NCBI GenBank assembly: GCA_016841905.1
Contig: JAENYF010000001.1
Coordinates: 1-64,000 of the forward strand
Origin: Desulfoscipio geothermicus
Lineage (GTDB): Bacteria; Bacillota; Desulfotomaculia; Desulfotomaculales; Desulfallaceae
Length of the DNA: 64,000 nt
Direction: 5' to 3'
This document shows, piece by piece, positions 32,975 through 40,032 of the stretch. The position numbers and the translations under genes were made by a program. Every line of letters begins with the position of its first letter. The stretch's first letter is position 1. The notes beneath the pieces were generated by a model. It had not been told where the DNA came from, ran no database searches, and saw only the letters and a program-made list of their open reading frames with translations.

Positions 32975-33187
32975 CAATGCCTCCGCAATTGTAGTAAATT
33001 ATTTTTTTCATTATAACATCCTAAGTGATATTACAAAATATTAAAAATATTTCACTGCACCGGAGTCAGAGTCTACAGCTATGGTCAGGCAAGTAACCAC
33101 AAAGACCGCACATTCTAATAGAGTATTTTAAATTAATATTGCATATCTATTCCTCTTCCGGTAATATTAATATATGTAATTTAATAG

Positions 33188-33290
33188 AACTTCGAGTCGG
33201 ACATGCCTCAGACACTATTGTTATGGCTGTACGACCCTTAGGGTTTGCCGGGAAACCGGCTTGCCTCCCATTGTGGAAAGAAGAGAAACT
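33188..33290 (+). ncRNA. Moco/Tuco-type riboswitch upstream of tupA
   Basis: The 3' half carries the molybdenum-cofactor RNA motif signature: a CC..TTAGGG strand, a GNRA-capped hairpin (GCCGG-GAAA-CCGGC), then TTGCCTCCCATTGTGGAAAG. This matches the E. coli moaA leader (CCACCAGGG...GCCTCCCG...TGGAAAGG) as I recall it. The same block recurs at 34622-34720. The compact size fits the short subtype proposed to sense tungsten cofactor, and the downstream gene encodes tungstate uptake. A terminator follows, so control is probably transcriptional. Confidence 0.85.
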
Positions 33291-33305
33291 TTTTGGGCTT
33301 GATAG

Positions 33306-33352: not shown

Positions 33353-33478
33353 GTGTGGGCTGTTATGGTAAGAGGTATGATTTTACTTATTAGCTAAGAA
33401 AGGATGTGACTCTTAAGCAGAAATCTTGGTTGAAGGAAATAATTAACAGTTCATTTAAAGAAGTGGAGGAATATGTTA

Positions 33479-34360
33479 ATGAGAAAGAAAAGCGCACTAA
33501 TTTTCATGCTGTTGATGCTTGCTTTGGTTTTAACACTGGTCGGCTGCGGCCAGGATACCACTAATGAAGAACCACAGCAAAATCAACAAGAACAACAAGC
33601 CGACCAACCTGAGAATAAACAAATTATCCTGGCTACCACCACTAGTACCCAGGATAGCGGACTGCTGGATGAACTGCTGCCCACTTTCCAGGAAGAAACC
33701 GGCTACATAGTAAAAACAGTAGCTGTTGGCACCGGGCAGGCCCTGGAAATGGGTCAAATGGGCAATGCTGACGTGCTGTTAGTGCATGCCCCGGCTTCTG
33801 AAAAGCCGCTGGTAGAAGACAAGACAGTGATTAATTACGAGCTGGTAATGCATAATGACTTTATTTTGCTGGGACCGGCTGCGGATCCCGCCAAGGTAAA
33901 AGAAACCACCGGCATAGTTGATGCTCTCAAAAAAATAGCTGATAGTGGCGCGATTTTTGTCTCCCGCGGTGATGATTCGGGAACAGACAAAGCTGAGAAA
34001 AAGTTATGGAAAGAAACAGGCATTGATCCTAATGGACAAAGCTGGTATCAGGAAACTGGACAGGGCATGGGGGCTAGCATTACTATAGCCAACGAAAAAC
34101 AGGCCTACATATTAAGCGACCGCGGCACCTACCTGGCCCATTCTGAAAAAATTGACCTGGAAATTGTTTCTGAGGGCGATGAAGCGCTGAAGAACATTTA
34201 TCACGTGATGCAGGTCAACCCGGAAAAATTTGATCGGATTAATGCTGAAGGCGGCGAGGCGTTCGTCGAGTTTATGATCGACGAAGAGACCCAGCAAACA
34301 ATCGAAGAATTTGGCAAAGACAAGTTTGGCCAATCGCTGTTCTTCCCTGACAGGCTGTAA
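33479..34360 (+). CDS. tupA: Tungstate ABC transporter substrate-binding lipoprotein
   Basis: The product of about 293 residues has a lipoprotein signal with LVGC, a Gln/Glu/Asn-rich linker, then a TupA domain: ILATTTSTQDSGLLDELLP binds the oxyanion, followed by GTGQALEMGQMGNADVLLVH and SRGDDSGTDKAEKKLW. TupA binds tungstate with very high affinity outside the cell. ATG 33479 suits the GGAGG spacing better than ATG 33473. No tupB permease or tupC ATPase gene follows; the gene ends at a hairpin. It is controlled by the riboswitch upstream. Confidence 0.92.
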   Translation: MRKKSALIFMLLMLALVLTLVGCGQDTTNEEPQQNQQEQQADQPENKQIILATTTSTQDSGLLDELLPTFQEETGYIVKTVAVGTGQALEMGQMGNADVLLVHAPASEKPLVEDKTVINYELVMHNDFILLGPAADPAKVKETTGIVDALKKIADSGAIFVSRGDDSGTDKAEKKLWKETGIDPNGQSWYQETGQGMGASITIANEKQAYILSDRGTYLAHSEKIDLEIVSEGDEALKNIYHVMQVNPEKFDRINAEGGEAFVEFMIDEETQQTIEEFGKDKFGQSLFFPDRL

Positions 34361-34500: not shown

Positions 34501-34621
34501 CCCCTTAATAGAAATTAACTGTATTAAAGCGTGAGGAATTTACATTTAAGCTTATAGCAGGTAAACCTGTGCGGTTTGCTAAAAGATGATTTATCTTATT
34601 AAAACGGATGTTCATTAATCA

Positions 34622-34720
34622 ATCTCTGAGCTTGGTAACCTTAGCCTAAGGTATGGTTGCCCGGCCTTTAGGGTGCATGGGGAAACTAGTGTGCCTCCCA
34701 TTGTGGAAAGGAGAATTGAG
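34622..34720 (+). ncRNA. Second Moco/Tuco-type riboswitch
   Basis: The core CCTTTAGGG...GGGGAAAC...GTGCCTCCCATTGTGGAAAGG nearly duplicates the riboswitch upstream of tupA, with an ACCTTA/TAAGGT hairpin in its 5' half. The outer TCTCT (34623) and GGAGA (34710) can pair to close it. It is followed by a terminator and then by an uncharacterised gene instead of a recognised Mo/W gene. Confidence 0.85.
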
Positions 34721-34736
34721 CTTTATTTGTGCTGTA

Positions 34737-34772
34737 AAGCTTTGTCCTTTGCACTGGGACAAAGCTTTTTAT
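34737..34772 (+). terminator. Terminator of the second Moco/Tuco riboswitch
   Basis: AAGCTTTGTCC and GGACAAAGCTT are perfect 11-bp arms with a 9-nt loop, then TTTATATT. It lies between the aptamer and the gene at 34832. Confidence 0.88.
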
Positions 34773-34831
34773 ATTGTTCCGGGATGAGCAACAAAAGGTT
34801 ATTCCGAATAATTTTTACGGGGGGTGACAAG

Positions 34832-35257
34832 GTGAAGGAGAAGTTTAAGTTTGGTGACTTTCTTGTTTCCTTTAGGCGTGGCGAGGTAGTCGGAGTGCAT
34901 AATGAAAAAGAAGTGGAGCTAATTGAGATCTGCAACCGGTTAGGGAGGCCGGGCTGCAAAGTTTTCGACCCTTTCGTGGCTTATTCCCAGTTGGCTGAAC
35001 GCAATTTGTTAGAAAAAGTGAAAATTAAAAACCTGGACGGTTCCTGGACCGTATTTTTCTTCTATCCCATTGATTTAAAGCAAAGCGAAATTAGAAGACA
35101 AATCATTAATTGTATCCTGTACGAGGCAAGCAAAGACAGCCGGTTATTTTTAAACCGAATGTCTGTGGTGATTAGCAACGATGGTTGTCTAAAACTGGTA
35201 TGTATTAAGCAAAGCCACAAAAATTCCCTCAAAAGAAAAAGAAATTGTCTGTATTAA
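34832..35257 (+). CDS. Uncharacterised protein under a Moco/Tuco riboswitch
   Basis: GTG 34832 has GGGGGGTGAC just upstream; the frame is open further up but that part lies in the riboswitch terminator. The 141-residue product has no signal peptide or membrane segment. It reads as mixed alpha/beta (FKFGDFLVSFRRGEVVGVHN, then LDGSWTVFFFYPIDL) with a very basic C-terminus (KQSHKNSLKRKRN). I recognise no family. Its riboswitch implies a role linked to molybdenum or tungsten cofactor supply, storage or use. It is a single-gene unit. Confidence 0.7.
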   Translation: MKEKFKFGDFLVSFRRGEVVGVHNEKEVELIEICNRLGRPGCKVFDPFVAYSQLAERNLLEKVKIKNLDGSWTVFFFYPIDLKQSEIRRQIINCILYEASKDSRLFLNRMSVVISNDGCLKLVCIKQSHKNSLKRKRNCLY

Positions 35258-38408: not shown

Positions 38409-38467
38409 GATAGTTGACTAGGAGAAGTTAGGCAGATATAATTTAAGTTAAAATTTACATAATAAGT

Positions 38468-38754: not shown

Positions 38755-40032
38755 ATGAGTTATACTACCCAAATGGAGGCTGCCCGCCAGGGCATCGTAA
38801 CCAGGCAGATGGAGGCGGTAGCCAATAAGGAAAATATAGCTGTGACCAGGCTTATGGAACTGGTGGCCAGAGGTCGAGTGGTTATCCCGGCCAATAAGAA
38901 CCACTCTTCCCTGGACCCCTGCGGGATTGGTGAAGGCCTGAAAACAAAAATTAATGTTAACCTCGGTGTCTCCCAGGATTGCTGCAGTATAGAGTCCGAA
39001 TTAGAAAAAGTGCGTTATGCCCTGCAGCTGCAGGCAGATGCCATCATGGATTTAAGCTGTTATGGCAAAACCGAAGAGTTCAGGCGCCGCCTGCTTGACA
39101 TGTCCAGCGCGGCTATTGGCACTGTTCCGGTTTACGATGCGGTGGGCTTGTACGATAAAGAGCTGGAAACCATTACTGTAGACGAATTACTGGGCGTGGT
39201 GGAAAAGCATGCCCAGGACGGTGTGGATTTCATGACTATCCATGCGGGGATCAACCGGGATATTGCGGCTACCTTCAAAAAAAATAAACGCCTGACCAAT
39301 ATTGTTTCCCGGGGCGGAGCCCTATTGTATACCTGGATGGAACTGAATGACCGGGAAAATCCCTTTTATGAATATTACGATGATCTGCTGGATATCTGCA
39401 GCCGCCATGATGTAACCCTCAGCCTAGGCGATGCCTGCCGTCCGGGCAGCCTTAAAGATGCTACTGATTCGGTGCAGGTGCACGAACTAATTGTCCTGGG
39501 TGAATTAACCCGCAGAGCCTGGGAGAGAGGAGTGCAGGTGATGATCGAAGGCCCCGGACATATGCCTATAAATGAAATTGCCGCCAATATGATTTTGGAA
39601 AAGAAACTCTGTCATGGCGCCCCCTTTTACGTGCTTGGCCCGTTGGTTACGGATATCGCGCCCGGTTACGACCACATTACCAGCGCCATTGGCGGGGCTA
39701 TTGCTGCGGCCGGCGGCGCGGATTTCCTTTGTTATGTTACGCCTGCCGAACACCTCCGCCTTCCTACGCTGGAAGACATGAAGGAAGGGATTATCGCCTC
39801 CCGGATTGCTGCTCACGCCGGCGATATAGCTAAAGGTATTGCCGGCGCCCGGCAGTGGGATGATGAGATGAGCGAGGCCAGGCGCTGCCTGGATTGGCCC
39901 CGGATGTTTGAGTTGGCTATTGACCCGGAAAAGGCCAGGCAATACCGGGCCGAATCGCGGCCGGAAAATGAGGACACCTGTACCATGTGCGGTAAAATGT
40001 GCGCTGTACGCAATATGAACAAGGTACTTTAG
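38755..40032 (+). CDS. thiC: Phosphomethylpyrimidine synthase
   Basis: The 425-residue radical-SAM enzyme makes the pyrimidine part of thiamine (HMP-P) from aminoimidazole ribotide. It shows family segments [36 protein letters not shown] and, near the end, the CxxCxxxxC cluster motif as CTMCGKMC. The ATG follows AAGGAGGAGAG and the gene is under the TPP riboswitch. No other thi gene is adjacent. Confidence 0.97.

Follow-up and report, generated by a model that had tools for sequence, protein, structure and literature searches.

To our knowledge, few tungsten-specific genes are known in bacteria. The closest described system to the locus studied here is the Moco RNA motif, or Moco/Tuco riboswitch (RF01055; PMC2408646). 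According to the main text of its report, the usual targets of this class are genes for transport, biosynthesis and enzymes, and the members that lack P3 track the use of the tungsten cofactor (Tuco), a relation argued there from correlation and not from demonstrated binding (Regulski et al. 2008, PMC2408646). That main text does not name the protein family described below and speaks of "other genes of unknown function". Two further systems are close enough to be compared: ModE (TIGR00637), the molybdate-responsive regulator, and the DVU_1551-DVU_1555/XdhC aldehyde-oxidoreductase maturation cassette (NF045664, NF045665, NF045666, NF045669 and NF045646).

In the window (the whole stretch of 64,000 nucleotides of DNA that was analysed), a P3-lacking RF01055 riboswitch precedes a gene for a protein of 141 residues. 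A protein family tied to Tuco-type riboswitches offers a new and concrete element of tungsten homeostasis, open to experiment, in anaerobes that rely on tungsten enzymes for aldehydes and formate.

The riboswitch and its expression platform

The aptamer was located on the forward strand at 34612-34729, where cmscan gave a full-length match to RF01055 (model positions 1-135) with 66.4 bits against a gathering cut-off of 36, and an E-value of 9e-14 over the window. A preliminary description, made from the letters of the DNA, had placed a Moco/Tuco-type riboswitch upstream of the gene, and the covariance model bears this out. A second RF01055 riboswitch, with 63.4 bits, was found at 33178-33299 (+), 5' of a tupA-like gene. 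The P3 positions are deleted in the cmscan alignment of both aptamers, which are thus of the P3-lacking (Tuco-type) form. The first had been said nearly to duplicate the second; they do belong to the same family and share an identical conserved core, but with 80 identical positions (about 65%) between sequences of 122 and 118 nt they are siblings, not near duplicates.

The RNA at 34612-34729 is a standard RF01055 member. It has in common with the class the full-length model match, the P3-lacking architecture and a terminator-type expression platform, and no difference was found in the RNA itself; the difference lies in the protein family that it controls. Since both aptamers lack P3, the form that the main text of PMC2408646 correlates with Tuco, this cofactor is the presumed ligand, and the aptamer type favours it over Moco. 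Tuco-related genes in the window genome comprise TupA-like genes and six AFOR_C matches.

The aptamer is followed by an intrinsic terminator at 34736-34768 (+). The preliminary description had given it as a perfect stem of 11 bp; the terminator is present, with a stem of 12 perfect pairs (13 in all), a 7-nt loop and a T-rich tail. The minimum free energy (MFE) fold of the leader (34612-34772) contains a predicted antiterminator at 34696-34759 (+), in which the 3' portion of the aptamer sequesters the terminator's 5' arm and loop by base-pairing. In the computed folds, this antiterminated form (-55.2 kcal/mol, the MFE) and the terminated form with P1 intact (-53.0 kcal/mol) are mutually exclusive, and their energies lie within 2.2 kcal/mol. 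When the transcript was lengthened stepwise in the folding, P1 was kept to about 34745 and the antiterminator prevailed from about 34750.

Judged from these folds, the arrangement of aptamer, terminator and antiterminator has the probable layout of an OFF switch. A ligand holding P1 would favour termination, so that the gene would be expected to be off when Tuco is abundant; repression has been seen for the E. coli moaA element, which agrees with this direction. We propose that 34612-34832 could act as a Tuco-type (P3-lacking) riboswitch and transcriptional OFF switch. Plentiful tungsten cofactor would stabilise P1 of the aptamer, the terminator at 34736-34768 would form, and the gene would be silent. 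At scarce cofactor, the 3' part of the aptamer would pair with the 5' arm of the terminator, as in the antiterminator, and the 141-residue gene would be transcribed as its own unit.

The gene can be regarded as its own unit in the window since the next gene downstream encodes an unrelated DEAH-box helicase. Upstream, the gene for a TupA-like tungstate-binding lipoprotein (33473-34360, +) is a separate transcription unit. It matches PF12849 with an E-value of 4e-44 and NF041772 with 234.9 bits, a score under the curated TupA equivalog cut-off of 400, and neither tupB nor tupC adjoins it in the window.

The 141-residue protein, its homologues and their neighbourhoods

The gene itself lies at 34832-35257 (+), with a GTG start, and is preceded by a Shine-Dalgarno-like stretch, GGGGGGTGA, read from the sequence at 34819-34827 (+). 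No family was found for its protein in Pfam at E ≤ 10, and no credible match was obtained in Pfam or NCBIfam for the 14 family members (the protein and 13 homologues). Likewise, the PDB sequence search with family members gave no match, no paralogue was found in its own genome even at E 10, and a literature search of open-licence papers returned none on this protein family. The earlier statement that this is a single gene of no known family is in keeping with these searches. The lone NCBIfam match, to the AhpC peroxiredoxin, was rejected as spurious, with 15.1 bits against a cut-off of 272 and an E-value of 0.015 over a 22-residue WTVFFFYP stretch only; two matches outside the order (L043 and L044) were AhpC genes with this common stretch and not family members.

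Within the genus, dN/dS values of 0.13-0.38 indicate purifying selection, and the gene can therefore be regarded as real and constrained. The protein is small, basic and apparently cytosolic. Most relatives are also basic (pI 7.7-9.9), and the very basic C-terminus noted in the preliminary description is real in the window protein, but the KR-rich tail is found in the window's genus only. In the family alignment, invariance is seen mostly at hydrophobic positions and also at G21, E27 and R88, and no conserved Cys/His cluster or Cys/His metal ligands were found. AlphaFold, run with two nearly identical sequences as input, gave unreliable models with mean pLDDT of 36 and 40. Taken together with the alignment, these weak models suggest the order strand(s), helix, helix, strand, strand, helix, strand, strand.

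Among 60 relatives searched, the window's own copy and 13 homologues were recovered, and a profile search of the order detected the gene in 17 of 113 genomes, a count that includes the window genome. When the search was extended to about 400 genomes of the phylum, no family member came up outside the order, and none was found in a viral-contig scan. The protein of a named relative, Sporotomaculum syntrophicum, is 89% identical, and identity between the two subfamilies falls to about 30%. The family thus appears to be order-restricted, confined to Desulfotomaculum-like bacteria, with the window protein as the first member described. Some of the 17 carriers are apparently cultured sulfate reducers or syntrophs.

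Five carriers in the window's genus have 16-27 Moco RNAs, and two non-carriers have four each. In another group, family f8, genomes have up to 26 Moco RNAs and the gene is absent; because genomes so rich in Moco RNAs can be without it, the gene is dispensable. AFOR enzymes were found in 97 of the 113 genomes of the order, most of these without the gene, and AFOR presence therefore does not explain its distribution.

At 16 of the 17 loci, in eight genera, the homologue is immediately preceded by an RF01055 riboswitch in the same orientation, and six of the loci have tandem copies. The exception is the homologue of G026, which starts about 957 bases from a contig end of poor sequence. All of the upstream aptamers examined are P3-lacking, judged by aptamer length and short linker. 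In the window's genus and several others, a terminator comes after the aptamer; at some homologues, as in G043, only a short distance separates the end of the aptamer from the start codon, a spacing that suggests translational control there. The carriers have about 181 Moco RNAs in total among the matches listed, so that the estimated chance of a random gene lying behind one is well under 1%, and the pairing of riboswitch and gene in eight genera is not chance. Like the described RF01055 system, these loci are associated with tupA and other Mo/W genes and show tandem copies at some homologues.

TupA-like genes adjoin the family gene in six genomes (the window genome, G000, and G002, G003, G004, G051 and G074). 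A modA gene or modABC is close to it in G005, G010 and G048, the homologue heading modABC in G005. The aldehyde-oxidoreductase maturation cassette introduced above was found, whole or in part, 5' of the homologue in five genomes of genus g17, and includes a DVU_1551-family NTP transferase, an XdhC-family AOR maturation factor, TrsS, DVU_1553 and DVU_1555; the present protein, in contrast, matches none of the described families of this cassette and also occurs without it. The Moco-enzyme maturation genes among the neighbours are MocA-like and XdhC-like. In G033 the homologue is followed by a MoeA-like gene and by a xanthine-dehydrogenase-like fusion gene, the latter named from its sequence.

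In 16 of 17 genomes the homologue follows a Moco/Tuco riboswitch, and the homologues mostly lie beside tupA, modABC, MocA-like, XdhC-like or MoeA-like genes. These findings are good support for regarding the gene as a new member of the Tuco/Moco regulon that is restricted to its lineage. The preliminary description had proposed a role in Mo/W cofactor homeostasis and had looked to the recurrence of homologues near Mo/W or pterin genes; at the level of the pathway this proposal holds. That the gene belongs to the W/Mo regulon is, in our assessment, highly probable, and the protein is very likely an unrecognised part of tungsten management in these bacteria. The joint claim of regulon membership and OFF-switch control by Tuco, leaving the molecular role aside, is considered probable.

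Candidate roles of the protein

The protein would act in response to tungsten or molybdenum shortage. As the preferred role we put forward, tentatively, that of a small, winged-helix-like protein that would bind nucleic acid and regulate tungsten genes. The evidence for it is the basic composition and the helix-helix-strand-strand core of the two weak models, whose central region gives the impression of the helix-helix-wing order of winged-helix proteins. No sequence search (Pfam, NCBIfam or PDB) links the family to those proteins. If it is a regulator, the protein would resemble ModE in being a small basic protein in Mo/W regulation, but the two have no profile similarity. Homology was rejected on an hhalign probability of 0.4% with the ModE N-terminal domain profile, no better than unrelated controls. 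Every one of the 17 carriers also has a distinct short ModE-like gene. The protein therefore does not stand in for ModE, in agreement with the profile comparison.

About equally likely as the regulator is an accessory factor that carries tungsten or cofactor, acts as an insertase, or helps to mature aldehyde oxidoreductase, formate dehydrogenase or enzymes of the xanthine-dehydrogenase type; the remaining probability falls to other roles, including tungsten sparing. An accessory role is in line with the range of genes usually controlled by this riboswitch class in the main text of PMC2408646, and with the neighbourhoods, namely the MocA-like/XdhC-like maturation cassette beside the homologues of five genomes, the adjoining MoeA-like and xanthine-dehydrogenase-like genes in G033 and the modABC genes headed in G005. 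However, the family has no conserved Cys/His metal ligands and is unrelated to the known maturation families in Pfam and NCBIfam, and the gene is not tied to a single enzyme type, most AFOR genomes being without it. Taking both roles together, the chances are about even that this family, which almost always stands behind Tuco-type riboswitches, has no known Mo/W counterpart and is dedicated either to regulation under tungsten limitation or to handling of the tungsten cofactor.

A different ligand would change the reading of the locus: the aptamer could bind Moco instead of Tuco, and the gene would then answer to molybdenum. The modA/modABC and XdhC/MocA-like genes, beside which some homologues are found, are usually molybdenum genes. 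Nevertheless, every upstream aptamer examined has the Tuco-correlated form, tupA is found beside the gene at least as often as modA, and the window genome has six AFOR-type matches, which makes a Moco ligand unlikely.

With Tuco kept as the presumed ligand, the gene could also serve to spare tungsten, if it and a downstream NAD-dependent aldehyde dehydrogenase replaced the tungsten aldehyde oxidoreductases when Tuco runs out. A glutamate-semialdehyde-type dehydrogenase gene follows the family gene in six genomes. In G043 (L055:132-1899) the dehydrogenase, of the L-glutamate gamma-semialdehyde type, has an RF01055 riboswitch of its own at 1779-1899 (78.5 bits), an arrangement hinting at a tungsten-independent aldehyde dehydrogenase that is switched on at low Tuco. 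Such sparing is nonetheless improbable as the function of the family, given that the dehydrogenase is not beside the gene in the window's genus or in G010, G015, G025 and G033, and that the proposal says nothing on the small protein's own activity. Finally, the notion that the riboswitch is left over from lost tup genes, with the present gene behind it by accident, to which the missing tupB and tupC next to the window tupA and the unrelated downstream helicase could lend some colour, is contradicted because the pairing recurs across eight genera with varied flanking genes, and also by the purifying selection on the gene, and hardly deserves any credence.

Other riboswitches in the genome of the window

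In the 3.08 Mb of the window genome, 30 RF01055 riboswitches score over the cut-off, far more than the 15 that the main text of the 2008 report gives as the highest number of Moco RNAs (PMC2408646). The copies whose length was read are all of 114-124 nt and apparently P3-lacking. Their targets include a FecCD permease, a MoxR ATPase, Fe-S CCG-domain oxidoreductases, a CBS-sigma54 activator, a ModD-like QRPTase, ApbE and a WtpA-like binding protein. Two more proteins without a Pfam family (L074:557-1330 and L071:2323-3180) lie behind tandem RF01055 riboswitches.

On contigs C8, C47 and C74 (L067, L069, L077 and L083), large secreted surface proteins are encoded behind Moco/Tuco-type riboswitches. 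These proteins carry SLH, cohesin and fn3 domains (L077:700-3762), repeated cohesins (L067:2-2467), cohesin with dockerin (L067:7683-9227), SLH (L083) and Shr-like, PKD and NosD regions (L069). A tungsten-regulated cell-surface assembly, if true, would be unexpected.

A TPP riboswitch at 38459 in the window (70.3 bits) precedes a ThiC-like gene at 38755-40032; it is ordinary, and is found near the same place in relatives.
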